From the NCBI GenBank assembly GCA_024401305.1, contig JAKSLI010000017.1, forward strand, positions 1 to 54,340: 54,340 bases of DNA, given 5' to 3'. Below, in pieces: positions 7,008 through 46,554 of this stretch (the stretch's first letter is position 1; every line of letters starts with the position of its first letter). Origin of the DNA: Bacteroidaceae bacterium. Its GTDB lineage: Bacteria; Bacteroidota; Bacteroidia; Bacteroidales; Bacteroidaceae. The notes under the pieces are model-generated. The model was given only the letters and a program-made list of their open reading frames with translations, did not search any database and had not been told where the DNA came from. Both the position numbers and the translations under genes were made by a program.

Positions 7008-9223
7008 ACATATCTGAATTCTTCTATCAGCAACGCTCCGAATGGCCTTTAGCCAAGAAAAACTACGACGACCTCGCAAATGTGAAGGTCACACCTCTTG
7101 TACTCTCCAATGGCGTTACAATTCATAAGCAATGCAATCCTGCTCGTATTGTTTCTACAGGCGCCAAGATTGACAAGGCTACACTCGCAAAGCGTCCTTG
7201 CTTTCTCTGCGACAAGAACCGCCCTCCAGAGCAAGCTTCATTCCCTTTTGCAGCCACCGTTCCCGAAGCTTCTTCTTCTTCTTCGGTCTCAACCATAGTT
7301 CCCGAAACATCCGCTTCGGTCTCTCCATCAGGCTTCCATATCCTCATCAACCCTTTCCCAATTCTTTCTACCCATTTCACGATGCCTTCCAAGCGTCATG
7401 AACTGCAGCAGATAAAGCCTTACTTCCCGGTAATGCTTGATTTCGTGGATCAGAATCCGGAAAGTTTCATTTTCTACAATGGTCCTCGCAGCGGCGCTTC
7501 CGCTCCTGACCACATGCATTTCCAGGCAGGATTGGTGAAGGATGTCCCTTTCTACAACCAAGCAGCCACAGTTTCCGAAGTTTCTCTTTCTAGCTCTGCT
7601 ACCGTTCCCGAAGTTTTTCCTTCTGGCTCAACCACCGTTCGCGAAGCGTCCGCTTCGGGTTCTACCCTCTTCATCCGCAACAACTGGCCTGGCGCCTGCA
7701 TCTCCATTTCCCATACGGAAAAGCTAACTATCATTGCTGAATTCCATCGCATTTACGAGGCTCTTCCAATACCTACCGGCGAATACGAGCCGATGTTTAA
7801 TGTCTTCGCCCGCAAGATTGATGGCATATACGAAGTTACAATCTTTCTTCGTTCTCAGCATCGTCCTTCTTGCTATGGCATGGAAATGCATAACCGCCTA
7901 GTTTCTCCGGGAGCTCTTGACATGGCAGGCTTGCTCATCACCCCTCGCCTTGAAGACTACGAAGCAATAACAGCCGCAGAAGCTGAATCTATTTACAACG
8001 AGGTTTCTGCGCCAGAGCTCATAGACTATCTCAACTACAATCTTGACCATCAAGGTCGAAAACTTGCAGTTGGACTCATTGAGACAGAAGGTGAAATCAA
8101 GTATTCTTTCAATGGCGAATACAAGAAACTCCAACTTCTCAACGATACAATCTTCATTCCTGCAAACGACAATTGTACATTCACTATCGAAAACATCGTT
8201 ATCGGTGTGAATTTCCACTGGCAACAGGAACGCAAACTTACTTACTCAGGCATACTCAAACTCACGAAAACACCGGATGGTAAGAACTGCGCCATAAATA
8301 TTCTGCCGATAGAAGAATATCTGAAGAGCGTCATCTCAAGCGAGATGAGCGCCATGTCTGACAAGGAACTTCTTAAGGCTCACGCTATTCTTTCCCGCAG
8401 TTGGCTGATTGCTAACATTGAAGGAGTTCACAACAACAAAACCATTGTAACCAGTGAAACCGATGGAACTCCCGAAACCTTGGTATGGTACGATCGTTCT
8501 GCCCACACCATTTACGATGTTTGTGCCGACGATCACTGCCAACGCTACCAAGGCGTGACGATGCAGACATCTCCACTTGTGGAAGAAGCTGTTGATGAAA
8601 CACGTGGAAAGGTTCTAATGTACGATGGGAAAATCTGCGACGCGCGCTTCTCCAAATGCTGCGGTGGTAAGTCTGAAGAATATGAATACTGCTGGGACAA
8701 CTCGGCTCACCCTTATCTTGTCAGCGTAGATTGCCCGTTCTGCAACACCGCCGAGCAGTTCGATTCTCAGGAACAAGAGCAGAAAGTGTTGAGACAAGTG
8801 CTCAACGACTACGACCTTGAGACACGCCATTTCTACAACTGGACAGCCACATACGAGAACCCTGACATCAAGGAAATCGTACCTCTTGAGCGCGGAAAGA
8901 GTGGCAGATTATGGAAGATAAAGGTCATCTACAACGACGGTCGTGAGGAAATCGTAGGCAAGGAACTCGAGATTCGCCGCCGCCTCTCTAATACCCACCT
9001 TTACAGCAGTTGGTTTAACATTCATGAAGCGCCCGTTTCGGCAAAAGCAGGCACAGTTCCCGAAGCTTTTCCTTCGGGACAATCAGCCACCTTCCTCATT
9101 GAAGGTCGCGGCTGGGGTCATGGAGTTGGTTTATGCCAGATAGGAGCTGCCGTCATGGCCGCAAAGGGCTACAAGTACGACGAGATTCTGCTCCATTACT
9201 TTCCGAAATCACAGATTCTATAA
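7004..9223 (+). CDS. HIT-like (DUF4922) / SpoIID-LytB fusion protein with repeat-encoded inserts
   Basis: 739 residues. The N-terminal half resembles DUF4922 proteins: CFLCDKNRPPEQ at about 64-75, and DHMHFQAG at about 168, an H-x-H-x-Q motif of the HIT nucleotidyl-transferase/hydrolase type. The C-terminal half (about 395-739) resembles SpoIID/LytB: LPIEEYLKSVISSEM, KAHAILSRSW and GWGHGVGLCQIGAAVMA, linked elsewhere to peptidoglycan remodelling. No signal peptide is seen. Odd: three places hold low-complexity peptides of the type ATVPEASSS, ATVPEVFPSG and TTVREASASG (about residues 83-107, 187-222, 683-697), encoded by palindromic repeats and unlike the rest of the protein. Coupled to the small ORF upstream. 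The activity of this fusion is not known to me. Confidence 0.85.
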   Translation: MNISEFFYQQRSEWPLAKKNYDDLANVKVTPLVLSNGVTIHKQCNPARIVSTGAKIDKATLAKRPCFLCDKNRPPEQASFPFAATVPEASSSSSVSTIVPETSASVSPSGFHILINPFPILSTHFTMPSKRHELQQIKPYFPVMLDFVDQNPESFIFYNGPRSGASAPDHMHFQAGLVKDVPFYNQAATVSEVSLSSSATVPEVFPSGSTTVREASASGSTLFIRNNWPGACISISHTEKLTIIAEFHRIYEALPIPTGEYEPMFNVFARKIDGIYEVTIFLRSQHRPSCYGMEMHNRLVSPGALDMAGLLITPRLEDYEAITAAEAESIYNEVSAPELIDYLNYNLDHQGRKLAVGLIETEGEIKYSFNGEYKKLQLLNDTIFIPANDNCTFTIENIVIGVNFHWQQERKLTYSGILKLTKTPDGKNCAINILPIEEYLKSVISSEMSAMSDKELLKAHAILSRSWLIANIEGVHNNKTIVTSETDGTPETLVWYDRSAHTIYDVCADDHCQRYQGVTMQTSPLVEEAVDETRGKVLMYDGKICDARFSKCCGGKSEEYEYCWDNSAHPYLVSVDCPFCNTAEQFDSQEQEQKVLRQVLNDYDLETRHFYNWTATYENPDIKEIVPLERGKSGRLWKIKVIYNDGREEIVGKELEIRRRLSNTHLYSSWFNIHEAPVSAKAGTVPEAFPSGQSATFLIEGRGWGHGVGLCQIGAAVMAAKGYKYDEILLHYFPKSQIL
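7253..7310 (+). repeat. Coding palindromic repeat, two degenerate copies
   Basis: GCCACCGTTCCCGAAGC and AGTTCCCGAAACATCCGC, each followed by TTCGG. CCGAAG/CTTCGG arms lie at 7263-7268 and 7278-7283. Read in frame as ATVPEASS and STIVPETSAS. Confidence 0.65.
7563..7668 (+). repeat. Coding palindromic repeat, three tandem copies
   Basis: Three copies at about 34-bp spacing: GCCACAGTTTCCGAAG, GCTACCGTTCCCGAAG and ACCACCGTTCGCGAAGCG. The last holds a perfect palindrome CGAAGCGTCCGCTTCG at 7642-7657. All are in the frame giving TVxE(A/V)(S/F). Confidence 0.7.
9049..9090 (+). repeat. Coding palindromic repeat, single copy
   Basis: GGCACAGTTCCCGAAG with perfect 7-bp arms CCCGAAG (9059-9065) and CTTCGGG (9072-9078). 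Read in frame as GTVPEAFPSGQ, then SAT, close to the SpoIID catalytic-type motif near the C-terminus. Confidence 0.7.
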
Positions 9224-9249
9224 TTGTAAATTCTATCCTACTTAAAAAC

Positions 9250-9279
9250 AAAGGGAACTGCTTCTAACAGTTCCCTTTT
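9250..9279. terminator. Bidirectional terminator
   Basis: Stem AAAGGGAACTG / CAGTTCCCTTT with a 7-nt loop, between convergent genes. T-rich on the plus side, A-rich on the other. Confidence 0.8.
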
Positions 9280-9323
9280 ATTCTATTATCTTGCCAAGAC
9301 TTTTATCTTGCCAAAACATTCTT

Positions 9324-11063
9324 TTATCTCACCAAGACCTTCTTTCCGTTAATGATATACAAGCCACCGGCAGCCTTCTCTACGCGCTGTCCAGCCAAGT
9401 TGTATATTCCCGTTTTCTTGGTCTGCTCAGCCTTTGCGTTGCTTATGCCAGAGCTCTTATCCGTCATTGTTATCTTGTAGATGCGTACGCCTTTGCCATG
9501 TATTACAAGTCCCTTCTTTTTCAACTGGTCGTAAGTCGTAGCATTGAAGGTGAGTGATGTCTTATGGTTTGTGCCTATAGAAGTCTTGTAGTATGTTCCA
9601 GGATTGAAATCTCCAGAGTATTGTGTTTTGCCATCAACAGTGAAAGAAGGCTTTGATGCCCAGTCGCCATAGAACAACTGCAATGCGTTGTAGCTTTCTT
9701 CCTGCTTATACTCCAATACAACTTGTGCAGATGAGCTGAAACCAGCAAACATAGCGGCTGGGATTGTTATGCCATCGCCCCAGTTTAACACTTTGTCGCC
9801 CTCAAAACAGATATACTCTTCAGCAGTATCTACGACTGGATATTCGCCGGCAAAGTCGCTGCCATGATAAGCCTTGGTCACACATTCCGCAAGATCAGGT
9901 TGTATGAAAGCAGGAATACTGCGTAGCGGACCATCAGACATTCCCATCCAGAAGAATGTTCCCATTCCGGCAGCCTTTGTCTGCTTAACGAAATATTCAG
10001 CAAACTGAAGCATAAGCTCGCGGCGAACATCGTAGTCGGTCTTGCCTGTACCTTTATCTACATTGCTTGTGCCCCATTCTCCGAAGATTACAGGTCCACC
10101 TTTTGAAACGAGATTGTCCTTCAGCACCTTAATCATGCCGTCAACTTCACTCTTGATTTCATACAATGAGCGTGATACTTCTGTTGTACCGCTGGTCTTT
10201 GTGAGGGCTGGGTAGGTGTGAACCTCAAAGATGATATGCCCCTTGCCAGCTTCACCATCAGGCATCTGAAGCTTTGTCAGCGGATCCTTGAGGTGAGAGT
10301 TCCAAGTGCCATAGCCGTTTGCTGCTGCGTAAGTGTTTATCACGAGGTTGCGCGTAGCATTGTTTCCGCCAGATGCACGAACCACATTCACAAAGCTCTG
10401 TGCGTAGCCATTCAAACCTTTGTATGCAGAAGCAGCATCTGTAGCATTGTATTGGCCTGAAGCAGCGAAAGTGGCAAAACACCATGAGTTGTACTTGTCG
10501 AGCATCTCATTGTAACTTTCAAATATAAGCTCCTTGCCGTAGTCCTTGAACTCCTCTGCAATCTGCTTCCAAAGCCCTTCGAATCGGTCCTTGTTGAGGT
10601 TGTAAGAATCCTCGCCAGCCTTTATCCAAGAAATGTGATTATCGCCGTCAGCGCCGGTGTCATGATGCACATTGATAATGCAGTAAAGGTCATTGTCCAG
10701 CACATAGTCAACAACCTGATGCACACGCTTCATCCATGCAGCATCTACTTTTCCATTCTTGTCCATGTGGTTGTACCAAGTCACAGGAACGCGGATTGCA
10801 CCAAAGCCAGCTTTCTTCATCATGGCGAAGAGCTCAGGCTTTGTCACAGGTTGTCCCCAATAGGTTTCGGAATCCACGCCTTGTTGTCCCCAATAGGAAG
10901 CAATGCTAAAATCCTTACCGGAATTTTTATGAGCGTCAAGTGTGTTGCCGAGGTTCCAACCTACGCCCATGTTCTTTACGGCTTCAGTAGCAGTCTCTGT
11001 TATTTGCGCATTGATGCTGAGTGCTGATGCGGCTATCAGCGAAAGTATTATAACTCTTTTCAT
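9324..11063 (-). CDS. Secreted glycoside hydrolase family 5 (endoglucanase-like)
   Basis: 579 residues. Signal peptide MKRVIILSLIAASALSINAQ. The GH5 catalytic domain spans about 25-390: GWNLGNTLDAHKN near the start, acid/base Glu186 in ESYNEMLD, nucleophile Glu329 in VIFGEWGTSN. GH5 enzymes of this type hydrolyse beta-1,4-glucans or related hemicelluloses; the substrate is not decided here. Residues about 410-540 look like a beta-sandwich carbohydrate-binding or accessory domain. The end, GIYNLAGQRV then GGLYIINGKKVLVR, is a conserved tail shared with the BspA-like protein at 23941-27237 and resembles a type IX secretion sorting signal. Promoter at 11096-11104. Confidence 0.92.
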   Translation of the reverse strand: MKRVIILSLIAASALSINAQITETATEAVKNMGVGWNLGNTLDAHKNSGKDFSIASYWGQQGVDSETYWGQPVTKPELFAMMKKAGFGAIRVPVTWYNHMDKNGKVDAAWMKRVHQVVDYVLDNDLYCIINVHHDTGADGDNHISWIKAGEDSYNLNKDRFEGLWKQIAEEFKDYGKELIFESYNEMLDKYNSWCFATFAASGQYNATDAASAYKGLNGYAQSFVNVVRASGGNNATRNLVINTYAAANGYGTWNSHLKDPLTKLQMPDGEAGKGHIIFEVHTYPALTKTSGTTEVSRSLYEIKSEVDGMIKVLKDNLVSKGGPVIFGEWGTSNVDKGTGKTDYDVRRELMLQFAEYFVKQTKAAGMGTFFWMGMSDGPLRSIPAFIQPDLAECVTKAYHGSDFAGEYPVVDTAEEYICFEGDKVLNWGDGITIPAAMFAGFSSSAQVVLEYKQEESYNALQLFYGDWASKPSFTVDGKTQYSGDFNPGTYYKTSIGTNHKTSLTFNATTYDQLKKKGLVIHGKGVRIYKITMTDKSSGISNAKAEQTKKTGIYNLAGQRVEKAAGGLYIINGKKVLVR

Positions 11064-11095
11064 GATGATTTGTAATTCTTGTTAAAGTAGCGTGT

Positions 11096-11104
11096 GCAAA
11101 GTTA
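11096..11104 (-). promoter_or_regulatory. GH5 gene promoter -7 box
   Basis: TAACTTTGC on the minus strand, 32 bp upstream of the GH5 ATG. Confidence 0.65.
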
Positions 11105-11186
11105 ATACTTTTTTTGAAAACAAATGCATAAACTCACAAATCTTCATAAATTCAACTCTTTTCTTTGCATATTCGGAAGAAAATAT

Positions 11187-11195
11187 TAACTTTGC
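11187..11195 (+). promoter_or_regulatory. Transporter gene promoter -7 box
   Basis: TAACTTTGC with TTTG about 20 bp upstream (11164-11167). It lies downstream of an ATG at 11092 and so sets the real start at 11221. Confidence 0.75.
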
Positions 11196-11220
11196 AGACG
11201 TAAACTGCAAAACCCTAATT

Positions 11221-12495
11221 ATGAAAAATCCTTGGTCATGGGTGCCTTCGCTCTATTCCGCAGAAGGCTTGCCATATGTAATAGTAATGCAGGTCGCCGT
11301 GTTGATGTACAAGCAATTTGACTTGAGCAATACGGAGATTGCCCTCTATACCTCGATGTTCTATCTGCCGTGGACAATCAAGCCGCTGTGGAGTCCGTTC
11401 ATCGATATGTACAAGACAAAACGCTGGTGGATAATCACGATGCAAACTCTCATAGGAGCAGCTTTTGCCGGCATCGCATTCACCATCCCAACAGACTTCT
11501 GGCTGCAAGCTACGATAGCATTCTTTTGGCTTCTTGCCTTCTCCAGTGCTACTCACGATGTCGCGGCCGATGGTTTTTATATGCTTGGACTCAATGAGGG
11601 TGAGCAATCTATGTTCGTTGGCATTCGAAGCACATTCTATCGCCTTGCATCCCTTTTCGGTTCTGGTGTTCTTATAATGATTGCAGGCAACCTTCAGACA
11701 TTGATGAAGGGTAGCGTGAAGTATTCGTGGAGCCTTATTTTCTACGGACTTACAGGCATCTTCATAGCTCTTATGCTTTGGCATACTAGAGCACTTCCGA
11801 AGCCAAAGACCGACAAGGGACTGGAAGGAAACATTTCCTTCTCCGATGTTCTCGATGAACTTTGGGAAACCATTAAGTCGTTCTTTACAAAGATGCCTCT
11901 AAAGGAAGTCATTCTTGCCACCTGCTTCATGCTCCTTTACCGTATGCCGGAAGGTTTGCTCGTGAAGATTACTCCGCTCTTCCTCATCGAACCGCAGAGT
12001 GCCGGTGGTCTTGGTCTTTCGCCTCAGGAAATCGGTTTTGTTCAAGGAACAGTTGGCGTCATCGGACTCACATTAGGCGGTATTCTCGGCGGTGTGCTTG
12101 TCAGTCGCGACGGATTGAAGAAGTGGCTTTGGCCAATGGTCTTTGCCATCACAATCCCAGATGCAGTATATATCTATCTGAGTATGGCATTGCCTGATAA
12201 TTTCTTCCTCATAAACGCTTGCATCGCTCTCGAGCAGTTCGGCTACGGCTTCGGTTTCACTGCTTATATGATGTATCTCATATATTACAGTCGTGGCGAG
12301 CATAAGACATCCCACTACGCCCTCTGTACAGCCTTCATGGCACTCTCGATGATGATTCCAGGACTCTTCTCCGGATGGTTGCAAGAGACAGTTGGCTACC
12401 GCATGTTCTTCATCATCGTCATGGCACTCTGCGCCATTACCTTCATCGTCTCAGCCCTTGTGAAAATAGACCCTCATTTCGGAAAGAAAGAATAA
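11221..12495 (+). CDS. MFS transporter, AmpG-like
   Basis: 424 residues with about 12 hydrophobic segments. Begins MKNPWSWVPSLYSAEGLPYV, the usual N-terminus of AmpG/PAT-like permeases, which import muropeptides in proteobacteria. The frame is open up to an ATG at 11092, but the promoter at 11187-11195 and family alignment support 11221. The conserved loop after TM2 is present (YLPWTIKPLWSPFID). The substrate in this organism is unproven; muropeptide recycling or sugar import are both possible. Divergent from the GH5 gene and ends before a shared terminator with rpsA. Confidence 0.9.
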   Translation: MKNPWSWVPSLYSAEGLPYVIVMQVAVLMYKQFDLSNTEIALYTSMFYLPWTIKPLWSPFIDMYKTKRWWIITMQTLIGAAFAGIAFTIPTDFWLQATIAFFWLLAFSSATHDVAADGFYMLGLNEGEQSMFVGIRSTFYRLASLFGSGVLIMIAGNLQTLMKGSVKYSWSLIFYGLTGIFIALMLWHTRALPKPKTDKGLEGNISFSDVLDELWETIKSFFTKMPLKEVILATCFMLLYRMPEGLLVKITPLFLIEPQSAGGLGLSPQEIGFVQGTVGVIGLTLGGILGGVLVSRDGLKKWLWPMVFAITIPDAVYIYLSMALPDNFFLINACIALEQFGYGFGFTAYMMYLIYYSRGEHKTSHYALCTAFMALSMMIPGLFSGWLQETVGYRMFFIIVMALCAITFIVSALVKIDPHFGKKE

Positions 12496-12623
12496 GTCAA
12501 CAAGTAATCAGCCTTCCTCTCAAAGTTTAATAAACCGTTCTACATAATTATTTGAGTACGAAAAGAGTGCTAAAATGAATAAACATACTCTCGTTTACTA
12601 GCTCTTCTCAAAATACTACTATT

Positions 12624-12657
12624 AAAAAAGCTCTCGCAGATCTGCGAGAGCTTTTTT
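12624..12657. terminator. Perfectly palindromic bidirectional terminator
   Basis: A perfect 34-bp palindrome: A6, GCTCTCGCAGA, TCTGCGAGAGC, T6. It serves both the transporter gene (plus) and rpsA (minus). Confidence 0.95.
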
Positions 12658-12679
12658 ATAGCGATTATGGTAAGTTTGA

Positions 12680-14555: not shown

Positions 14556-14570
14556 CACATTTTCAGCTAG

Positions 14571-22484: not shown

Positions 22485-22557
22485 AGCAAGGGGGCAAATA
22501 ATAAGTAATCTGCGCTGTAAAGTTACATCTTTATTTTGGAAAGCAGCTGTTTTTATC

Positions 22558-22646
22558 CGATATTTTGCGTAAATTTACGTATTTTAGCGGATAGGACACG
22601 GTTCCTACTCGATATTTTACGTAAATTTACGCGTTTTAGCGGATAG
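22558..22646. repeat. Two 37-bp direct repeats with palindromic core
   Basis: Copies at 22558-22594 and 22610-22646 (period 52) differ at three positions. Each is built round the perfect palindrome CGTAAATTTACG; with the flanking TATCCG/CGGATA the first copy is an imperfect palindrome of about 40 bp. Confidence 0.8.
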
Positions 22647-22734
22647 AATAGGGCCAGAAGCAAATCTGGCGCAAACCCAATAAAGAAAGGATTTGCACCA
22701 GATTCGATACTTATTGTTGCGTATTATTCAGACA

Positions 22735-23940: not shown

Positions 23941-26900
23941 TTATTTTACGAATACTTTCTTACCATTCTTTATATAGATGCCGGCAGGGAGGTTCTTGCT
24001 GTCCATCTTTACTCCGTTAAGATTATAGATGTTGCCATCATTACGCACTGCATCAACATGCTCAATGGCTGTTGTGCCTTCGTCCTCACCTATCACGCTG
24101 AGAGATATAGCCTTAGCATTTGCAGATGAAGAAGAACCGTTTCTTGATTTCACAGTCATTATCCAGCGGTTAGGCTTAACTGTGATTGTTTTTGTAGGAC
24201 TAAAGTCAAGCACGCCGTTGATAGTCATGTAATACTTATCATTGCCCATCACCCCCTGGCTTGCATACAATCCCGTGAAAGTATATTCGTCAGTCATTGT
24301 AGAGCAAGAGTATGATTTCTCTTCTGCAGGATAAAGTACATTGTCGGCAGATGCAAAGGTGTAAGTGCCAGCATTCTTTGGGCGAATGAGGTAAGGCTTG
24401 TTAGGATTGGTAGTACCTGTTTTCAGCTTGTTTACGATAAGCTTGTTGGCATCTCTTCCGTCAATCTCACCATCGCCATTGGTGTCTTCGGTTGGGCTGA
24501 TATTAAAAATCTCGGCAAAGTCAAAATCGTCAAGATAGTCTTCTATGTTAATGCTCATTGGCACATACAATGCATTCCACTTATTTACTACAGATGAAGA
24601 GAAAGTCTTTGTGAATGTAAGCTCATCGTATGTCTTTTCTTCTGCGTTAGTATATGCTTCACCATCTATCAGTTCTAATGATTCCTTGATGCCTTCTATT
24701 GACTTCCAACTCTTCCACTGACTTGCAGCCTTATAAGCTTCAACTGATCCTTGTGGCACATAGAGGACTCCGCTAGTAATATATTTTGTTCCACTAAACA
24801 CACTTGATCCCAAAGTTGGAACCTCTGATGCCAAACATGTTAATTCTTGAAGATTACTACAATATGAGAACGCAGAGTTACCAATGCTCGTCACGGAATT
24901 CGGGATAGTCACGGAGGTGAGGCCGGAACAGCCATAGAACGCATAGTCACCAATGCTCGTGACGGAATTCGGGATAGTCACCGAGGTGAGGCCGGAACAA
25001 TAAAAGAACGCATAGTTGCCAATACTTGTCACGGAATTCGGGATAGTCACGGATGTGAGACCAGAACAAGAAGAGAACGCAAGGTTGCCAATACTTGTCA
25101 CGGAATTCGGGATAGTCACGGATGTGAGACCAGAACAAGAAGAGAACGCATAGTTGCCAATATTTGTCACGGAATTCGGAATAATGTATGTTCCTTGTTT
25201 ACCACCAGCACAACATATTAACTCCGTTTTATCTATATTGAATAACACATTATCTTCAGATGTATATTTAGAATTGCTACTGTCAACTTTCAAAGATGTA
25301 AGACGGCCACAACCAGAGAATGCACCTGCCCCGATACTTACCACGGAATTCTGAACTGTAATAGATAGCAGATAGGAACAACCATAGAACGCAAGGTTGT
25401 CAATACTCGTCACGGAATTCGGGATAGTCACGGAATTTATTGATGTCAAACCAGTACGTAGGACCGTTTTGGTGCCTTCTGCATAGATAAGTTCCTTTAC
25501 ATTAGTACAATCAGTGAACGCATCAGCTCCAATACTCGTTACGGAATTTCCTATAGTAACAGATGTGAGACCAGAACAATGTTCGAATGCCCAGTAGCCA
25601 ATACTTGTAACGGAGTTCGGAATAGTCACTGAGGTAAGGCCGGAACAATAAGAGAACGCCCTTGTTCCAATACTCGTCACGGAATTCGGGATGGTGACAG
25701 ATGTGAGTTTAGAACAGCCATCGAACGCAGAGTTACCAATGCTCGTCACCTTATATTCCACACTGCCAAACACAAACGTCTCTGGAATAACAACTGCTCC
25801 CTTTAAAGGGGAATTATAATTAATAGGGTAATAATCACCATCTTCATCCCATCGATTATCACTGAAATATGTTACAGTAGCCTCTTGTGTGGTTTCATTT
25901 ATGTTATAGTAAAGATCATCTATACACACATCAAAATCACTATCAATATAACAATTAAAAACTTTGCGACCTGTCACACCACTTCCATCTGTAGCAGATG
26001 CTGTTATTGTGACAGAGCCATTCTTCAGTGCCTGTGCCACGCCAGTTTCTTCATCTATACATAATATGTTTGAATCAGATGAGGACCATTTTACTGCTTT
26101 TGCAGCATCTTCTGGCAATACATTAGCAGTAAAAGTAACTTTTTCACCTCGGTATGCAAATGATTTATTCGATGATACACTAATGCTTGAGACTTTATTG
26201 CCTACAGCAGTGATCTCACAACTCCCAGAAACGCCACTTCCGTCAACTGCAGTGGCTGTGATTGTGGATTTTCCCAAGCCCGTAGCCGTGATTTCGCCAG
26301 TGTTAGCATTTACACTTATCACATTAGGATTTGAAGATGACCAGGTTACGGTCTTGTCTTTTGCATTTTCCGGTAATACTGTAGCTGTGAGAGTCTCTGT
26401 TTCACCAACTATTATTGTACTACTGCTTGCATTAATGCTGATGCTTGAAACAAGTGCTGGAAGAGGCTGAATATACATGAAACGTGACCATGGATATTTT
26501 GTTTTGTATGCATCTAAGGAACTTGCTGGAACGTAAAGCGTTGCACGATACAGTGGGCAATTTTCAAATTGCTCAAAATCTTCATATCTTGTTGACGGAA
26601 TTTCTGTAGCATAGCAATATACAGATGTGAGTTTCTCACAATTTCCAAATGCAGCTTCACCAATACTTGTCACAGAGTTCGGAATGGAAACGGAGGCGAG
26701 ATTGTAACAATACCTGAATGCATATTGCCCAATGCTTGTTACGGAGTTCGGGATAGTAATGGAAGTGAGAGCTGCGCAATGATAAAAAGCTTCAGGAGAA
26801 ATACTCAATACGGAGTTTGGTATATTCACAGAATTAAGGCTAGTACAATTGTAGAACGCATCCCAGCCGATACTTGCCACAGAATTCGGGATTGCTATGG

Positions 26901-27237
26901 AGGTGAGGCTTGAACATAAAGAGAACGCCGAACTACCAATACTTGTTACGGAATTCGGTATTTCTATTGAAGTGAGACCTGTACATTTATAGAAAGCGTA
27001 GTTACCAATGCTCGTTACACCATCTTTTATCTGTACCTTGATAATTTTATCTCGGTTACTGATCCAAGGAGATGAATCAGAATAAAAGTTAGACATACTT
27101 CCACTACCGGAAATAGCCAGAGTACCGTCATCATTGAGGACAAATGTGACATTTGCGCCACATGTTCCAGATTGAATAACAGCATTTGCGGTAATAGCCA
27201 AGGCTACAAACGCCAACAAAGTTAGAAATCTTTTCAT
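23941..27237 (-). CDS. BspA-like leucine-rich repeat / Ig-like surface protein
   Basis: 1098 residues from the ATG at 27237 (signal peptide MKRFLTLLAFVALAITANA); an in-frame ATG at 27267 would add ten residues before the signal peptide. BspA-type LRRs (AFxxCxxLTSVTIPNSVTSIG, 23 residues) occupy about 60-230 and 490-800. Two group 2 bacterial Ig-like domains (SSISINASSSTIIVGE...; VSSISVSSNKSFAYRGE...) lie between, at about 265-430. A beta-rich region and the tail YNLNGVKMDSKNLPAGIYIK(NGKKVFVK) end the protein and suggest type IX secretion. Such proteins bind host or bacterial surfaces. It sits directly behind a structured RNA with its own terminator, so readthrough may control it. Confidence 0.93.
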   Translation of the reverse strand: MKRFLTLLAFVALAITANAVIQSGTCGANVTFVLNDDGTLAISGSGSMSNFYSDSSPWISNRDKIIKVQIKDGVTSIGNYAFYKCTGLTSIEIPNSVTSIGSSAFSLCSSLTSIAIPNSVASIGWDAFYNCTSLNSVNIPNSVLSISPEAFYHCAALTSITIPNSVTSIGQYAFRYCYNLASVSIPNSVTSIGEAAFGNCEKLTSVYCYATEIPSTRYEDFEQFENCPLYRATLYVPASSLDAYKTKYPWSRFMYIQPLPALVSSISINASSSTIIVGETETLTATVLPENAKDKTVTWSSSNPNVISVNANTGEITATGLGKSTITATAVDGSGVSGSCEITAVGNKVSSISVSSNKSFAYRGEKVTFTANVLPEDAAKAVKWSSSDSNILCIDEETGVAQALKNGSVTITASATDGSGVTGRKVFNCYIDSDFDVCIDDLYYNINETTQEATVTYFSDNRWDEDGDYYPINYNSPLKGAVVIPETFVFGSVEYKVTSIGNSAFDGCSKLTSVTIPNSVTSIGTRAFSYCSGLTSVTIPNSVTSIGYWAFEHCSGLTSVTIGNSVTSIGADAFTDCTNVKELIYAEGTKTVLRTGLTSINSVTIPNSVTSIDNLAFYGCSYLLSITVQNSVVSIGAGAFSGCGRLTSLKVDSSNSKYTSEDNVLFNIDKTELICCAGGKQGTYIIPNSVTNIGNYAFSSCSGLTSVTIPNSVTSIGNLAFSSCSGLTSVTIPNSVTSIGNYAFFYCSGLTSVTIPNSVTSIGDYAFYGCSGLTSVTIPNSVTSIGNSAFSYCSNLQELTCLASEVPTLGSSVFSGTKYITSGVLYVPQGSVEAYKAASQWKSWKSIEGIKESLELIDGEAYTNAEEKTYDELTFTKTFSSSVVNKWNALYVPMSINIEDYLDDFDFAEIFNISPTEDTNGDGEIDGRDANKLIVNKLKTGTTNPNKPYLIRPKNAGTYTFASADNVLYPAEEKSYSCSTMTDEYTFTGLYASQGVMGNDKYYMTINGVLDFSPTKTITVKPNRWIMTVKSRNGSSSSANAKAISLSVIGEDEGTTAIEHVDAVRNDGNIYNLNGVKMDSKNLPAGIYIKNGKKVFVK
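24850..25190 (-). repeat. 69-bp tandem repeats coding LRR units
   Basis: ACGGAATTC recurs at exactly 69-bp steps (24893, 24962, 25031, 25100, 25169). Units starting at 25031 and 25100 differ at about three positions, so copy-number change by recombination is likely. Confidence 0.9.
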
Positions 27238-39337: not shown

Positions 39338-39360
39338 CATTCTCTCAAACTCCAAAATAA

Positions 39361-39399: not shown

Positions 39400-39432
39400 T
39401 TGTTGTTATTTGCCGTAATCGTAATCACATCT

Positions 39433-39597
39433 GTAACCGTAACCGTGACCGTAACCGTAAAGTGCATTAGGTATATATGGTTTGTTTCGCGTACATATAT
39501 TATATATTAATTTAATTAATGTAATGAATTAATAATATGTAATGGACGAAAACGGAATGCATACGTATTTCGCGGTTACGGTTGCGGTTACGGTTAC
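39433..39597. repeat. Inverted GTAACC repeats, 25-bp arms
   Basis: Arms 39433-39457 (GTAACCGTAACCGTGACCGT...) and 39573-39597 (CGGTTACGGTTGCGGTTACG...) are complementary except at two positions, both of which are G-T pairs in the folded plus strand. The arms flank the AT-rich core. Confidence 0.9.
39471..39545. repeat. AT-rich core with TCGCGTACATATAT motif (copy 2)
   Basis: ATATATGGTTTGTT, TCGCGTACATATATTATATA, then AATTTAATTAATG. Similar to 27863-27958. Confidence 0.7.
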
Positions 39598-39651
39598 GCC
39601 TAGTTTTCCTGCAGGTTTTGGGTCATAACCCATAGAGATAATTTTATTTCC

Positions 39652-39691
39652 CGCTGAGTTTTGCCTCAAGTTACGCTGAGTTTTGCCTCAA
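39652..39691. repeat. Two perfect 18-bp direct repeats
   Basis: CGCTGAGTTTTGCCTCAA at 39652-39669 and 39674-39691, 4 bp apart, just after the fhs stop (minus strand). Confidence 0.9.
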
Positions 39692-39702
39692 AAAATGCAT
39701 TT

Positions 39703-41361
39703 TTATGAGAGACCGACAATTTCGCCGTCAATAAGGTCGATGTGGTTTGCCTGAGGATCCTTAGGAAGTCCTGGCATACGGATGATGTCTCCAGCGAGAG
39801 CAACAATCATTTCTGCGCCTGCGTTGATAACGACATCCTTGATGTTGAAATCGAAGCCACTGACTGCTCCATATTTCTTTTGGTCGGCAGAGAAAGAGAA
39901 CTGTGTCTTTGCAATGCACACAGGGAAATGGCCAAAGCCGAGGCTTTCAGCCAGTTTTATGCGCTTGAGTGCTGCTGGTGAGAATGTTACGTTGCCTGCG
40001 CCGTAGATGTTCTTTGCTACGGCTTCAATCTTCTGGCAAAGAGGCTCATCGTCTTTATACATGAACTTGAGAGGCTCTGATGGCTTCTCCTCGATAGTCT
40101 TTACAACGAGCTCTGCCATCTCCTTTGCGCCTTCACCACCAAGAGCGTAAGCGTTGTTGATGACGAAAGGAACGCGTAGGGTGTTCTCGCAATGGTTCTT
40201 TATGAAATCCATTTCCTCGTCGGTATCTGTTGCGAAGCGGTTGAATACAACTACTACTGTCTGTCCGAACTTTGTGAGATTGCCAACATGGCGATCAAGG
40301 TTGGCAAGACCAGTGCAAATTCCGTTCAAGTTAGGTTCCTTGATCTTGTCGAGAGCAACACCACCATGCATCTTCAAGCCTTGTGCTGTGGCTACGATGA
40401 CTGTACATGCAGGTTGCAAGCCAGCCTTGCGACACTTGATGTCGTAGAACTTCTCTGCGCCAAGGTCTGCGCCGAAACCAGCCTCTGTGACTGTGTATTC
40501 GCTATGTGAGAGAGCCATCTTTGTCGCGATGATGGAATTGCAGCCGTGAGCAATATTAGCGAAAGGACCGCCATGCACAATGGCAGGAGTCTGCTCTGTG
40601 GTCTGAACGAGGTTTGGCTGGATTGCGTCCTTGAGAAGAACCACAATTGAGCCTGCGATGCCTAAGTCCTTGACTGTGAAAGGCTTGCCTTCGTAAGTGT
40701 AACCGAGAAGAATCTGCTCTATGCGACGGCGAAGGTCAGCCTCGTCCTTTGAAAGACAAAGGATTGCCATGAGTTCCGAAGCTGGGGTGATGTCAAAACC
40801 ACCTTGTTGCTCAAGACCATTTGTGGATGGGCCAAGTCCGGTAACAATCTGACGGAGACTGCGATCGTTTACATCCAATACGCGACGCCAGAGTATCTCC
40901 TTTAGTCCAAAGCCTTCAGCGCGATGCTGGTAGAGATAGTTGTCGAGAAGCGCACTTATCATGTTGTGCGCAGAAGTTATGGCATGGAAATCGCCTGTGA
41001 AATGGAGGTTTATCTTCTCCATAGGAAGCACCTGAGCGTAACCGCCGCCGGCAGCTCCACCTTTCATTCCGAAACAAGGTCCGAGCGATGGTTCGCGGAG
41101 AGCGACAACAGCCTTCTTTCCGATGGCGTTGAGACCCAATGCGAGGCCGATGCTGACCGTTGTCTTGCCAATACCAGCCTTAGTGGCTGTGATGGCTGTA
41201 ACAAGTATAAGTTTTCCTTTCTGTTCGCCTATGAGCGAAAGGGGAAGTTTTGCGATGTGCTTGCCGTACTGTTCTATACTGTCGGCAGGAATGTCGATTT
41301 TTGCTGCTACTTCAGAGATAGGAGCGAGCTCACATGAGTGAGCAATTTCAATGTCTGTCAT
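39703..41361 (-). CDS. fhs: Formate-tetrahydrofolate ligase
   Basis: Makes 10-formyl-THF from formate, THF and ATP. 552 residues. P-loop-like [20 protein letters not shown] at about 56-75; [20 protein letters not shown]; near the end [11 protein letters not shown]. Promoter at 41513-41521. Confidence 0.97.
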
Positions 41362-41512
41362 TTGTGTTATTAAGATTTAGATTGTTCGAGTTTTGGGGGG
41401 ACATTTGTTCCTTGTTCAGAAGCAAATGTTGAATGTTGTTCTTAATCCAGTAGCAGTTTTGTGTTGTTCAATAGTCGTGTCGAAAAGCGCCTTACCATAG
41501 TAAGAAGCGAGG

Positions 41513-41521
41513 GCAAAGTTA
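41513..41521 (-). promoter_or_regulatory. fhs promoter -7 box
   Basis: TAACTTTGC on the minus strand, 151 bp before the ATG, so a long leader is implied. Confidence 0.65.
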
Positions 41522-41593
41522 CGAATTAGTTGCGTAAGTACAAAATTTTCAAAAATAAAAAGACAATAATAATCTGTTTTCGGTTAATATTTG

Positions 41594-41602
41594 TAACTTT
41601 GC
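41594..41602 (+). promoter_or_regulatory. TRIC-like gene promoter -7 box
   Basis: TAACTTTGC, 18 bp before the TTG start at 41621. Confidence 0.7.
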
Positions 41603-41620
41603 GGCCTAAAACCATATACT

Positions 41621-42247
41621 TTGACAATAACTTTTCCCATAGAAATAATCGGAACGATAGCTTTTGCCATCTCCGGAGTGCGACTTGCAGGAAGGCGTGA
41701 CTACGACCTTTTCGGCGGTTTTGTGCTTGCGTGGGTGACGGCTGTCGGTGGCGGAACCTTGCGCGATGTGATGCTAGGACAGGTGCCGTTCTGGATGACG
41801 AGCCCTCTTTATATTATATGTACATTCGGAGCTCTCATTTTGGTGCAGATATTCTCCAGATTGATGGACAAGATGAACAAGGCTTGGGTGTTTTTCGACA
41901 CGCTTGGACTTGCCCTTTTTACCATTGCCGGCATGCAGAAAACACTCGATTGCGGACAACCGATGTGGGTTGCCATAATGATGGGTTGCATAACTGGTGT
42001 GGCAGGTGGTGTCATACGCGATGTCTTAGCAAGTATTCCGCCAGTTATCTGCCAGAAAGATATCTACGCAATGTCTTCAATATTAGGAGGTTGCGTGTAT
42101 GCCTTGCTACTTCAGTTCGACCTTGATTCGCTGCTTATTTCCGTCATTACTTTCTTCTTTATAACAATAGTCAGATTGCTTGGTCTTCGCTACAACATAG
42201 AGTTGCCGAAAATTAGGATGTCTGAGGATAAGAAACACAAGGTTTAA
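41621..42247 (+). CDS. TRIC-type (YicG-like) membrane protein, TTG start
   Basis: 208 residues, about seven hydrophobic segments with the repeated glycine-rich motifs of the prokaryotic trimeric intracellular cation channel family (AFAISGVRLAGRRDYDLFGG; GCITGVAGGVIRDVLA). The family N-terminus aligns right from the TTG; no ATG in frame is available between the promoter and this point. A short leader of roughly 12 nt results. Confidence 0.9.
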   Translation: MTITFPIEIIGTIAFAISGVRLAGRRDYDLFGGFVLAWVTAVGGGTLRDVMLGQVPFWMTSPLYIICTFGALILVQIFSRLMDKMNKAWVFFDTLGLALFTIAGMQKTLDCGQPMWVAIMMGCITGVAGGVIRDVLASIPPVICQKDIYAMSSILGGCVYALLLQFDLDSLLISVITFFFITIVRLLGLRYNIELPKIRMSEDKKHKV

Positions 42248-42354
42248 GGCGAAAAATGCGCCTTTTTATGCCGTGTTCTGTGCAAAAAAATCAAAAAAAG
42301 AAAAGTTTTCTGACATTATTTACCGTGAAAAACCTTGTTTACACATTATTTGTG

Positions 42355-42363
42355 TAAATTTGC
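42355..42363 (+). promoter_or_regulatory. tonB-like gene promoter -7 box
   Basis: TAAATTTGC with TTG about 18 bp upstream; only 9 bp before the ATG at 42373. Confidence 0.7.
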
Positions 42364-42372
42364 GCACGAATT

Positions 42373-43116
42373 ATGGAGTTAAAAAAATCACGAAAATACG
42401 ACCTTGAACGCTCACGACCATTGCGACTTGCTTTGTCGTTCATATCCGTGATAGCCATGGTTGTATTTTTGGGTAGTACTCCGATGATTATTTCTTCCCT
42501 AATGAACCTCAGCAACGATTATGGCGATGAGTCGATAGAAGACCTCAACATCGATTTCAATGAGGAGGACGATATGATTCAAGCCATACAGACTGAAGTG
42601 CAGGATGAGGTGACAGAGATAATCAAGCCCGTTGAAACCGTGACGGAAGCCGTTGAACCGGAAGAACCGGCAGAAGTCGAAACTACGAAGGAACAAATAG
42701 TAGAAACTGATTTCAATCCGGAAGATCTTCTCAAAGAGGAGGAAGATACTCCAATGCAAGAGGAGAAGGATGCCAAGCCGATTGCAAATCCTGAGCAGGA
42801 AGATATCCTTATCTCGCAACAGCTCCCTGAATACCCAGGCGGAATGTCGGAGCTTGTGAAATGGCTCAACAAGAACATCAAGTATCCGCAGGCTGCCATC
42901 AATCGCAAATTAAAAGGAGAAGTGCAGGTGGCATTCTTCATAGAAAAAGACGGAAAATGTACCGATTTCAAGGTCATCAAGTCGGCTCATCTTCTTCTCG
43001 ACCAGGAAGCTCTCCGTGTATGCAGAATGATGCCTACATGGAAACCGGGTAAGATAAAAGGAAAAGTGTGCAGGACATACTTCGTAATCCCAATAAATTT
43101 TGACCAGACAAACTAA
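42373..43116 (+). CDS. TonB-family energy transducer
   Basis: 247 residues. One N-terminal membrane segment (LALSFISVIAMVVFLGSTPM, about 17-36), a Glu/Pro/Thr-rich periplasmic spacer (about 55-150), and a C-terminal TonB domain (about 157-247: PEYPGGMSELVKWLNKNIKY; GEVQVAFFIEKDGK). Couples inner-membrane proton force to SusC-like receptors; no exbBD here. Leader is very short. The next gene follows 15 bp later. Confidence 0.92.
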   Translation: MELKKSRKYDLERSRPLRLALSFISVIAMVVFLGSTPMIISSLMNLSNDYGDESIEDLNIDFNEEDDMIQAIQTEVQDEVTEIIKPVETVTEAVEPEEPAEVETTKEQIVETDFNPEDLLKEEEDTPMQEEKDAKPIANPEQEDILISQQLPEYPGGMSELVKWLNKNIKYPQAAINRKLKGEVQVAFFIEKDGKCTDFKVIKSAHLLLDQEALRVCRMMPTWKPGKIKGKVCRTYFVIPINFDQTN

Positions 43117-43131
43117 AACAACTTTACCATC

Positions 43132-44100
43132 ATGCCAAATTGTGCAGAAATAGACTCAAAGAAACTACTCTCAATGTTTGAAGATTACCTTGCTGCTTCT
43201 GAAATCCACAAGGAGCCACAAGGCATCTACGATCCGATAAACTATGTGCTCTCAATGGGTGGCAAGCGCATTCGCCCTGTGCTTATGCTTCTTGCATACT
43301 CGCTCTACAAGGACAATGCCCAGGATATTCTTCCTGCTGCACTTGCCATTGAGACTTATCACAACTACACTCTGCTTCATGATGATGTGATGGATAATGC
43401 TGATGTGCGTCGTGGAATGCCTACAGTTCACAAGAAATGGAACGAGAACGCGGCTATCCTTTCCGGTGATTCTATGCTCGTCCTTGCTTACCAACGCATG
43501 CTTGAGGTAAAGAACGATAGAATAAAGGAGGTGCTCGACCTCTTCACTACGACTGCTCTTGAGATTGGTGAAGGCCAGCAGTATGACCTTGAGTTTGAAA
43601 CACGCATGGATGTGAAGGAGGAGGAATACATCGAGATGATCCGCCTGAAGACTTCCGTTCTCCTTGCCTGCGCCTTGAAGATCGGTGCTTTGCTTGCGAA
43701 TGCTCCTCAGGATGACTGCGACAAACTCTATGATTTCGGCATAAACATGGGTTTGGCATTCCAGCTTCAGGACGATTACCTTGATGTCTATGGCGATTTC
43801 AAGACATTCGGCAAGGCTATTGGCGGCGACATCCTTTGCGACAAGAAGACATTCATGCTCATCAACGCCATCAACAAGGCTGAAGACTTTGATTTCGGCA
43901 AGCAATATAAGACTCCACAAGAGAAGATCTCTGCCGTCACTAACCTCTACAACGAACTTGGTATTGACAAGCTTGCACAGGAGAAAATTGAATGCTACTT
44001 CAATCTTGCACGCAAGAATCTCAACGAGGTTTCTCTTCCTCTGGAAATCAAGCAGCCTTTGTATGATTACCTTGATGACATGTTGAAACGCGAGAAATAA
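43132..44100 (+). CDS. Polyprenyl diphosphate synthase
   Basis: 322 residues. First Asp-rich motif DDVMD at 84-88, second DDYLD at 214-218; GGKRIRPVLMLLAY and GEGQQYDLEFE support the trans-prenyltransferase family. Product chain length is not decided by sequence alone. Followed closely by xseB. Confidence 0.94.
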   Translation: MPNCAEIDSKKLLSMFEDYLAASEIHKEPQGIYDPINYVLSMGGKRIRPVLMLLAYSLYKDNAQDILPAALAIETYHNYTLLHDDVMDNADVRRGMPTVHKKWNENAAILSGDSMLVLAYQRMLEVKNDRIKEVLDLFTTTALEIGEGQQYDLEFETRMDVKEEEYIEMIRLKTSVLLACALKIGALLANAPQDDCDKLYDFGINMGLAFQLQDDYLDVYGDFKTFGKAIGGDILCDKKTFMLINAINKAEDFDFGKQYKTPQEKISAVTNLYNELGIDKLAQEKIECYFNLARKNLNEVSLPLEIKQPLYDYLDDMLKREK

Positions 44101-44125
44101 GTTAAAGTTAAGTCAAAGTCAATAC

Positions 44126-44305
44126 ATGAACTACAACGACGCTCTTCAAGAACTCCAAGGCATAGTCATGGAACTTGAAAACAATCCAACTGATATCGAG
44201 TCGCTTGCCAAGAAACTTAAGCGAGCACAAACGCTGATAAAGGCTTGCAAGGACAAACTCACCAAGACTGACGAGGAAATCCAAAAGCTCCTTAAAGCAG
44301 AATAA
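44126..44305 (+). CDS. xseB: Exodeoxyribonuclease VII small subunit
   Basis: 59 residues: MNYNDALQELQGIVMELENN, then a helical hairpin ending KLLKAE. Matches the XseB pattern (YxxAxxxLexIvxxLE). Partner xseA is not in the window. 25 bp after the polyprenyl synthase gene. Confidence 0.85.
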   Translation: MNYNDALQELQGIVMELENNPTDIESLAKKLKRAQTLIKACKDKLTKTDEEIQKLLKAE

Positions 44306-44341
44306 AGCCCGAAAGGCTAAATAAAAAAAGCTCCTATAGTG

Positions 44342-44372
44342 AGCCCCCGTGCCCAGCGGTTTTCCGCTGGGT
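44342..44372 (+). repeat. Intergenic palindrome with AGCCCCCGTGCCC head
   Basis: Hairpin CCCAGCGG-TTTT-CCGCTGGG at 44352-44371 after a head that matches the GCCACCGTTCCC head at 6853 in 11 of 13 positions. It follows xseB and precedes ilvE. Confidence 0.6.
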
Positions 44373-44418
44373 CTTAATAACGAAAACTATAAACACAAAA
44401 AGCATACAAACTACGATT

Positions 44419-45435
44419 ATGAAAGAATTAGATTGGGCCAATCTCGGCTTCGGTTATCGCAAAACCGACTACAATGTACGCTGCTACTATCGCAACGGTG
44501 AATGGGGCGAAATAGAAGTATGTTCAGAGGAAACTATTCCTCTCCACATGGCTGCCACTTGCCTCCACTATGGACAAGAGTGTTTCGAAGGACTCAAGGC
44601 TTACCGCTGTCCTGATGGCAAGGTGCGCGTATTCCGCAGCGAGGAGAATGCTGCTCGTATGCAGTCAACATGCCGTGGTACACTCATGCCAGAGCTTCCT
44701 ACAGAGAAATTCAACGAAATGGTTGACAAGGTTGTCCGTCTCAACGAGCGTTTCATCCCACCATACGAGAGCGGTGCTACTCTCTATATCCGCCCACTCC
44801 TTATCGGTACTGGCGCTCAGGTAGGTGTTCATCCAGCAAATGAGTACATATTCCTTATCTTCGTTACTCCAGTAGGTCCTTATTTCAAGGGTGGTTTCTT
44901 CGCAAACCCATACGTTATCATCCGCGAGTTCGACCGTTCAGCTCCTCTCGGAACAGGTATCTACAAGGTTGGTGGTAACTACGCTGCTTCTCTCCAGGCA
45001 AACAAGAAGGCTCACGACATGGGCTATGCTTGCGAGTTCTATCTCGACGCAAAGGAGAAGAAGTACATCGACGAGGCTGGTGCAGCTAACTTCTTTGGTA
45101 TCAAGAACAATACATACGTTACTCCAAAATCAACTTCTATCCTTCCTTCCATCACAAACAAGTCGCTCATGCAGCTTGCTGAGGACCTCGGCATGAAGGT
45201 TGAGCGTCGTGCTATTCCTGTAGAGGAACTTGAGGAATTCGAAGAGGCAGGCGCATGTGGTACAGCAGCCGTTATCTCTCCAATCTCCAAGATTGACGAC
45301 CCTGAGGTTGGCAAGTCATATGTCTTCGGCGACAAACCAGGACCATGGTCAGAGAAACTCTTCAAGAAGCTCGTTAATATCCAGTACGGTATCGACGAGG
45401 ATGTTCACGGATGGACTCGTGTGGTAATCGGCTAA
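44419..45435 (+). CDS. ilvE: Branched-chain amino acid aminotransferase
   Basis: PLP enzyme for the last step of Val, Leu and Ile synthesis. 338 residues, class IV fold: LHYGQECFEGLKAYRC, PLP-Lys region YAASLQANKKAHDMGY, and FEEAGACGTAAVISPI near the C-terminus. Confidence 0.97.
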   Translation: MKELDWANLGFGYRKTDYNVRCYYRNGEWGEIEVCSEETIPLHMAATCLHYGQECFEGLKAYRCPDGKVRVFRSEENAARMQSTCRGTLMPELPTEKFNEMVDKVVRLNERFIPPYESGATLYIRPLLIGTGAQVGVHPANEYIFLIFVTPVGPYFKGGFFANPYVIIREFDRSAPLGTGIYKVGGNYAASLQANKKAHDMGYACEFYLDAKEKKYIDEAGAANFFGIKNNTYVTPKSTSILPSITNKSLMQLAEDLGMKVERRAIPVEELEEFEEAGACGTAAVISPISKIDDPEVGKSYVFGDKPGPWSEKLFKKLVNIQYGIDEDVHGWTRVVIG

Positions 45436-45448
45436 TTGATAGAATGAT

Positions 45449-45643
45449 ATGAAGAAGAAAGTCCTTATTTATGTGATTATGGTATTGATCCTAACAGTTA
45501 TTGGTTTCGTAATCAGATTACTTTTGAATTTAATAGTTGGCAATACATCTGATAGTTACACCGAACAATTAATAGAATCATTGGGCTTTTCTATCGTTTT
45601 TATTCCAATTTATAACTGGTCACAAAAGAAACTTAAGAGTTAA
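45449..45643 (+). CDS. Small membrane protein of unknown function
   Basis: 64 residues with two hydrophobic segments ([33 protein letters not shown]) and a Lys-rich end. 13 bp after ilvE. Not recognised. Confidence 0.65.
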
Positions 45644-45676
45644 TTTGCACAAAAGGGTCAGACCCCTTTGTGCAAA
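45644..45676. repeat. 33-bp palindrome (16-1-16), copy 1
   Basis: TTTGCACAAAAGGGTC-A-GACCCCTTTGTGCAAA, one mismatch. It starts on the base after a stop codon. Same plan as 54010-54042. Confidence 0.9.
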
Positions 45677-45696
45677 AATCTCTCAAACGACCTAAT

Positions 45697-46554
45697 ATGG
45701 GCAAAGGAAAACTTGCGAAATTCGCTGATATGGCATCATACGAGAATGTGTTTGAACACCCATTCTCTGTGATGCAGGATGTTCCTTTTGATATGAAGGG
45801 ACATTGGCATGAGCAATACTTTAAGAACAACAACCCTATTGTGCTCGAACTCGGGTGCGGTAAGGGTGAATATACTGTGGGCTTGGCTAAGAAGTTCCCT
45901 GACATGAACTTCATCGGTATAGACATCAAGGGTGCGCGAATGTGGACAGGTGCCACGCAAGCCATCCAAGAGAAACTTCCGAATGTTGCCTTCATTCGCA
46001 CGAATATCGAACTCATAGAACGCTTCTTTACTCAAGGCGAAGTAAGCGAGATATGGGTAACTTTCGCCGACCCTCAGATGAAGAAGGTGAACAAGCGCCT
46101 CACTTGCACCATGTTCCTTGAGCGTTACCGCAAGATTCTGAAGGATAACGGACTCGTTCATCTCAAGACAGACTCCAACTTCCTCTTCACTTATACCGAG
46201 TATATGGCTGAGCATAACCATCTCAAAGTGCTCACCAGTACCCGCAACCTATACGAAGACTGCAAGAAGGAAACTATTGAAGCCTCAGCCCCTGTTCCTG
46301 AAGCGTCCGTCACCGTTTCTGAAGCGTCAGCCACCGTTCCTGAAGCGTCCGCTTCAGGTCGTATACTTTCCCTCGCTGCTTCCATCCAGACTTACTACGA
46401 GTCCATGTGGATAGACCGTGGTCTTGACATCAAGTATATGGTGTTTGAACTCCCACAGGAAGGCACTCTGACTGAGAGTGAACGCGAGATTCCGCTCGAC
46501 GAGTACCGCTCTTACCAACGCGACAAACGCTCGCCAAAGGACACGGCTGTATAA
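45697..46554 (+). CDS. trmB: tRNA (guanine(46)-N7)-methyltransferase with repeat-encoded insert
   Basis: 285 residues from the ATG at 45697 ([20 protein letters not shown]), the family's start; an in-frame ATG at 45670 lies in the palindrome just upstream. SAM motif [10 protein letters not shown] at 51-60; [11 protein letters not shown] for catalysis and tRNA binding. Residues about 197-221 are [20 protein letters not shown] and following EASASG, encoded by three palindromic repeats and absent from homologues I recall. They sit between the conserved [10 protein letters not shown] and the C-terminal [11 protein letters not shown] helix region. Confidence 0.93.
46288..46360 (+). repeat. Coding palindromic repeat inside trmB, three tandem copies
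   Basis: CCTGTTCCTGAAGCGTCCG, ACCGTTTCTGAAGCGTCAG and ACCGTTCCTGAAGCGTCCG. The last holds the perfect palindrome CCTGAAGCGTCCGCTTCAGG at 46339-46358. Same frame and peptide as in the SpoIID fusion gene. Confidence 0.85.

Follow-up and report, generated by a model that had tools for sequence, protein, structure and literature searches.

A short REP-like hairpin lying mostly within genes of a Bacteroidaceae genome and its relatives, with RAYT proteins as candidate movers

How palindromic DNA that is translated as part of a protein enters and spreads through essential genes is, to our knowledge, unsettled. For the Rickettsia palindromic elements (RPEs), the accessible portions of PMC3733652 and PMC2229807 name no mover. 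The question arises again in a 54,340-bp stretch of Bacteroidaceae DNA (GenBank assembly GCA_024401305.1, contig JAKSLI010000017.1, positions 1 to 54,340; hereafter the window), where a unit of about 30 bp recurs within two unrelated genes, a DUF4922-SpoIID fusion (the SpoIID gene) and trmB. With a little more confidence than doubt, we read this unit as a non-autonomous mobile hairpin of the repetitive extragenic palindromic (REP) type – mostly intragenic and probably moved in trans by REP-associated tyrosine transposases (RAYTs), which are Y1/HUH proteins.

An earlier note, drawn from the letters of the window, had reported the repeat in these two genes, and its placement there is borne out. 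Five places in the window match GCCACCGTTCCTGAAGCGTC with three or fewer mismatches, compared with 0.00 expected from 100 shuffles, and the stem pattern gives four matches compared with 0.01 expected; chance or low complexity as the origin is ruled out by these shuffles together with a reversed-pattern control that returned nothing. All units of both host genes lie on the plus strand in one common sense frame and, decayed and half units included, number 2, 3 and 1 at the three sites of the SpoIID gene and 3 in trmB: the single frame and the tandem arrangement at three of four sites were thus described correctly. Other parts of the description need amendment. Thirty base pairs holds as an approximate length, but the spacing ranges from 15 bp, in a contig-39 copy, through 21 bp in trmB to 33 and 39 bp in the SpoIID gene. 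The palindrome is perfect, with an 8-bp stem, in the unit at 46330, but those at 7598 and 7631 carry one stem mismatch each. Both genes are genuine hosts, but they are not the only ones: 42 host genes occur in stretches sampled from two genomes, and a direct head-plus-hairpin search found two intergenic copies in the window that had been missed, with heads like those of the genic units and unrelated, perfectly paired stems. In total the window holds eight recognisable units and three that are truncated or decayed (Table 1). An Rfam scan of the window at gathering scores matched no known RNA family.

Each unit begins with a head, (A)GCC[A/C]C[C/T/A]GT[T/G], followed by a covarying stem of 7-8 bp and a loop of 4-6 nt, with conservation that starts roughly one base ahead of GCC and ends near base 30. 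The commonest stem-loop is CCCGAAGC GTCM GCTTCGGG; other stems likewise enclose loops of 4-6 nt. It is the head that is conserved, while the letters of the stem vary. A covariance model was trained on 68 units from the window, its genome and relatives; G7 and T8 of the head occur without exception, in 59 of 59 and 39 of 39 units, these being units found by a model that expects them. Seven of the eight stem pairs are altered on both sides (18 cells, compared with 1.2 in shuffles). The association of head and stem is evident from scrambled-head controls: in element-rich stretches a perfectly paired stem of 7 bp or more follows 43 of 2604 heads in the window's own genome (G000) and 31 of 2033 in its sister genome (G436, Horse_feces96), against 2 of 2727 and 3 of 2117 for one scrambled head and 12 of 2547 and 9 of 1990 for a second, less clean one. 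A stricter search distinguishes two head types, GTT and GTG, present 26 and 8 times in G000 and 19 and 8 times in G436. Adjacent units retained for counting share one strand and are arranged head-to-tail. This anatomy points to the REP/RAYT kind, since the head ends in GT at the foot of the hairpin and RAYT genes are present in the genome.

The earlier note proposed searching the rest of the genome, and further copies are indeed numerous: G000 has 40 places with three or fewer mismatches and none for the reversed pattern. By the covariance model there are at least 107 matches in G000, at least 84 in G436, at least 80 in a third genome, a red-deer Prevotella (G437, Red_deer_2_mag_11), and 6-21 in six others, these counts being lower bounds based on the top 150 candidates scored per genome. 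Among 16 comparison genomes the model matched nothing in 13; the others gave one (G412), three (G418) and five (G404) matches. Of 399 genomes of the family, two match with two or fewer mismatches, one being the window's own. A search of 84,980 species genomes for the exact pattern returned 27 stretches, by their titles from eight Bacteroidales metagenome-assembled genomes (MAGs; the own genome was possibly left out), several of which are named for horse, sheep or red deer. One 48.6-kb IMG/VR contig carries a unit beside a TAG triplet (L070, 7377-7398) and is a possible vehicle. No published description of this family was recognised in the literature searched, a search outside which most subscription papers lie.

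Position relative to reading frame was analysed in stretches picked around high-scoring copies, where density and genic share (62 of 103 units) are not genome averages. Of the matches in the sampled stretches, 62 of 73, 41 of 53 and 29 of 37 were used, those dropped being weaker, partial or on the opposite strand of the same palindrome. In the G000 and G436 stretches, 37 of the 42 host genes carry units in sense phase 0 only and five in antisense phase 1 only; this tally includes some orthologous pairs shared by the two genomes, and units in tandem do not count as independent. A second gene caller placed 54 of the 62 genic units in sense phase 0, with seven in antisense phase 1 and one in antisense phase 2, and the laxest caller added a few units in other frames. 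In G437, 22 genic units divide into 14 in sense phase 0, four in antisense phase 1, three in sense phase 1 and one in antisense phase 0. The antisense phase 1 peptide, PEADASGTV, is the antisense image of the sense phase 0 peptide. Because the two main frames thus share one register of the palindrome on both strands, the frame bias is most simply put down to selection on the peptide. Through this favoured register nearly all genic units yield a small, acidic peptide; the consensus, read directly, has no stop codon in any frame.

Host proteins include ArgRS, PriA, MetH, an RNA pseudouridine synthase, DsbD and cobalamin enzymes in G000, and PriA, QueA, RlmN and DXS in G436. The DXS insert corresponds to a 12-residue gap in a solved homologue; that of MetH falls between the homocysteine and folate domains, and those of QueA and PriA fall between aligned blocks. 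ArgRS aligns with a solved structure across its insert without a clear gap, and for TrmB the alignment with solved structures stops short of the insert. Over dozens of enzymes the element maps where proteins appear to tolerate inserts, and the inserted peptides can affect annotation and trees of host genes.

Comparison with the sister genome reveals gain or loss. Two blocks of the G436 TrmB protein match that of the window at 99% and 98% identity, and the intervening stretch is missing: 94 bp of trmB in G000 face 7 bp in G436. In a check on homologues, also proposed earlier, the peptide VPEASASG was found in none of 37 other aligned TrmB proteins, that of G436 included; in G437 and G442 the same loop of TrmB holds other repetitive inserts. 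The three sites of the SpoIID gene, with 2, 3 and 1 units in G000, have one unit each in G436. The G000 stretches hold 49 unit clusters, 20 of which have a comparable segment in G436, with states read by eye. Eight of the 20 are the same in both sisters (clusters 18, 25, 28, 32, 35, 39, 40, 48), seven differ in unit number (9, 10, 19, 23, 24, 27, 31) and five are missing in G436 (11, 17, 26, 29, 47), several of the latter having their place occupied by a different repeat family. Gained neighbouring units often carry a different stem behind the same head (clusters 9, 10, 31). No clear target site duplication was seen by eye, and empty sites differ at their junctions. We take these comparisons of sequence to show that the element is mobile, a conclusion well supported by filled versus empty sites in close relatives.

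Events of a more local kind also occur. In clusters 39 and 40 (L241 versus L123/L063) the loops are reverse complements of each other between the sisters, with flanks 97-100% identical, which hints at a hairpin that forms, or is copied across, inside the cell. These loops, and tandems of variable period, show that slippage or template switching at short palindromes takes place; that such events produced the units in place is nevertheless very improbable, since a moving source is needed to put one head and stem at dozens of unrelated sites, and neighbouring units often have different stems.

Other repeat families inhabit the same regions. Arrays of the heptamer GCAGAAT/ATTCTGC, direct and inverted, stand in G436 (L047, L269) at gene sites where G000 (L244, L231) has the element; they lie in frame in metH and another gene and constitute a second intragenic family. 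A third, inserted within the SpoIID gene in G436 only (L146) and present between genes as well (L251, near cluster 11), is a GC-rich palindrome of the AGCCCTCCCC...GGGGAGGG type.

Units between genes are also oriented. In the G000 and G436 stretches, 38 of 41 intergenic units are in sense with co-directional genes on both sides, compared with an in-sense expectation of about 38% (368 of the 481 gaps in these stretches are co-directional); the same is true of six of seven intergenic units in G437. Within stretches L240, L244 and L260 orientation flips along with gene direction, and orientation therefore tracks transcription and not replication; the replication strand is disfavoured as its cause. 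Frame selection cannot account for the bias of intergenic units, whereas selection on the transcript or strand-specific insertion can.

Two further explanations take orientation as their starting point. One is that the unit is a selected functional signal – a transcript-stabilising mRNA hairpin, a protein-binding site or a DNA uptake sequence – whose function sets frame and orientation. The strength of the bias is in keeping with this, as are the many copies just past a stop codon (under another gene caller, 10 of 42 intergenic units have an upstream stop within 3 nt). We nonetheless think it improbable: most sampled units are genic, seven of the 62 genic units are in antisense phase 1, there is free variation in the stem, and copies are gained or lost between the sisters. 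The other is insertion via RNA, the hairpin of a transcript being copied back to DNA or guiding insertion and thereby fixing orientation, which would account for sense orientation within and between genes and for its following gene direction inside single stretches. This too we hold to be unlikely, because selection, or single-stranded DNA in the transcription bubble, could give the same bias; and no reverse transcriptase linked to the units turned up, although no search for one was made.

Candidates for a mover of the hairpin as DNA are present in the genome. A protein of G000 (P0003, here RAYT-1), with relatives on seven contigs of that genome, has the HUH and Y..NP motifs of class 2 Y1/HUH RAYTs (MPDHLH and YLDDNP), judged against the motif table in the accessible part of PMC6006769; it scored above the cut-off of PF01797 in one scan and matched no Pfam family at 1e-6 in another. 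Hairpins resembling the unit accompany several RAYT genes. RAYT-2 of G000 (L317) contains one and has another 20 nt upstream; the two share the head GCCCCTGTG and the loop GTCA, as in the GTG subfamily. At the 3' side of RAYT-1 is a hairpin with a GTT-type head, best kept in G406 as ACCACCGTT[CCAAGCGG]TTTTG[CCGCTTGG]; relatives of it are found in G436 and, decayed, in G000. The RAYT genes of G441 and G442 have such hairpins inside, and in PMC6006769, as far as its accessible text goes, frame-keeping REP insertions are reported for RAYT genes of subclass 2.4.

Several observations weigh against RAYTs as the movers. The congener G406 has a RAYT-1 orthologue that is 87% identical, together with its hairpin, yet no match to the model, and a head-plus-stem search of 320 kb of that genome gave no other hit; RAYT-1 as a sufficient cause is accordingly unsupported. 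Relatives of RAYT-1 are found in seven of nine carriers but also in eight of 16 comparison genomes, and the carriers G438 and G439 have no RAYT-1 match. Five of the seven RAYT loci in G000 show no such hairpin, and where stems do accompany RAYT genes they are unlike the common genomic stem. Such hairpins occur once per 7.7 kb in element-rich stretches, which makes proximity by itself weak evidence; the head has a GTT or GTG end in place of the canonical GT[A/G]G foot; and a predicted match in head type between the element in G442 and the hairpins inside its RAYT genes failed (one ACT head). The Y1_Tnp family was also discarded as a marker of carriers, having matches in 11 of 12 genomes, three of four non-carriers included.

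These observations leave a possible, though less favoured, place for a different account, in which the unit is a protein-coding mobile palindrome like those of Rickettsia, spread by another or a lost enzyme, with RAYT genes and their hairpins as bystanders. G406, with RAYT-1 and without the family, and G438 and G439, with copies and without a RAYT-1 match, fit it; so does the report, in the accessible part of PMC3733652, of CGTC-tagged repeats and RPE-4/6 without a linked transposase. It is at odds with the match of both head and loop at RAYT-2 and with a hairpin of the unit's head type kept at RAYT-1 where no other copies were detected; moreover, the MAGs may be incomplete. Taken together, the link to RAYTs is moderately supported, and the scales tip slightly toward a RAYT mechanism.

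Under that mechanism, a RAYT-type Y1/HUH protein encoded elsewhere would recognise head and hairpin in single-stranded DNA and insert copies in trans. Insertions would survive in loops and linkers when in a tolerable frame, or between the genes of operons; the sense orientation would reflect either a receiving strand opened by transcription or selection on the transcript. We tentatively raise a more specific version, to which we give much less credence: a REP/RAYT-type system that has genes as its main habitat, its protein inserting hairpin DNA into the transcription-exposed coding strand. Were it true, sense orientation would have one explanation for both genes and operons, and the spread of Rickettsia-type protein-coding palindromes would gain a first enzyme handle. 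With filled and empty sites in close relatives and candidate enzymes in the same genome, the question becomes testable in gut bacteria.

The features of the window are collected in Table 1. Two repeats of other kinds also lie in it: 69-bp tandem repeats at 24775-27039, within a minus-strand open reading frame (ORF) of 1108 aa, and two adjoining 52-bp direct repeats at 22549-22652 that are 81% alike and both have a TTTACGTAAA-like core.

Table 1. Units of the hairpin element and their host genes in the window; E values are those of the covariance model.
Feature	Position	Strand	Evidence
Unit between genes with a GTT head, stem CCTCGCA/TGCGAGG and TTCA loop; shortly 3' of ORF ending 6837	6854..6881	+	perfect head and stem; weak model score, E 0.11
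Host gene, DUF4922-SpoIID fusion, 739 aa, three insertion sites	7004..9223	+	ORF; Pfam DUF4922 and SpoIID; sister gene with fewer units
Unit, site 1	7253..7289	+	covariance model, full unit, E 5e-6
Unit, site 1	7292..7322	+	covariance model, full unit, E 1.7e-6
Decayed unit, site 2	7565..7597	+	repeat family D7; missing in sister gene
Unit, site 2	7598..7628	+	covariance model, full unit, E 2.1e-6
Unit, site 2	7631..7661	+	covariance model, full unit, E 4.5e-9
Unit, site 3; one also here in sister gene	9050..9080	+	covariance model, full unit, E 2e-6; alignment
Unit between genes with a GTG head, stem CCCAGCGG/CCGCTGGG and TTTT loop	44343..44371	+	perfect head and stem; model E 0.03
Host gene trmB, 294 aa	45670..46554	+	ORF; NCBIfam TrmB
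trmB stretch facing 7 bp in sister genome; contains three units	46271..46364	+	BLAST block ends; alignment
Half unit (head and 5' arm)	46288..46308	+	sequence; 37-bp model match 46288-46324, E only 0.15
Half unit (head and 5' arm)	46309..46329	+	sequence, GCCACCGTTCCTGAAGCGTC search
Complete unit, perfect 8-bp stem	46330..46360	+	covariance model, full unit, E 1e-9

Known systems share much with the element, each in a different respect; the comparisons rest on those parts of the cited papers that were accessible. REP/RAYT systems (PMC6006769, PMC3733652) have in common with it a short hairpin with a conserved 5' foot, numerous scattered copies, stem types showing paired changes, and RAYT genes with hairpins beside or inside them; as a palindromic hairpin of 20-40 bp in many dispersed copies the element resembles a REP. 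The REP foot, however, is GTAG or GTGG, whereas in the element an invariant GT is followed by T or G and then mostly by C, and hairpins with a GTAG head number 1 of 2740 in the G000 stretches. REPs are mainly extragenic and often form inverted pairs; sampled units are mostly genic and head-to-tail, with an orientation that follows transcription. A canonical-looking REP family does exist in G437, where GTAG-foot hairpins with the stem GGACGCGA stand by a RAYT-like gene (L329, contig 112) and GTAG-head hairpins number 24 in 400 kb (L339-L358).

CGTC-tagged repeats, RPE-4 and RPE-6 among them, are reported in Bacteroidetes (PMC3733652) and have, like the element, a stem of 8-9 bp, a loop of 4-5 nt and intragenic copies. 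They are described with a terminal CGTC, A-T first stem pairs and a CCA-like tail; the unit consensus has none of these, its CGTC lying across the loop, and identity with them was rejected on structure.

RPEs (PMC2229807, PMC3767692) are in-frame palindromes in unrelated, often essential genes, found between genes as well and using one or few frames; the element, too, lies in frame within conserved genes and is missing from homologues. The likeness to RPEs proposed in the earlier note stands for behaviour and not for build: RPEs measure 105-146 bp (PMC2229807) against about 30 bp here, a separation by length in which the RPE sequences themselves were not compared, and the element has a variable stem behind a fixed head, head-to-tail multiplication, intergenic copies, RAYT candidates and an anatomy of the REP/RAYT kind. 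Because it departs from REPs in its foot and in their habit of extragenic inverted pairs, and from RPEs in length, the element is filed under neither: it is a variant of the REP and coding-palindrome kind.

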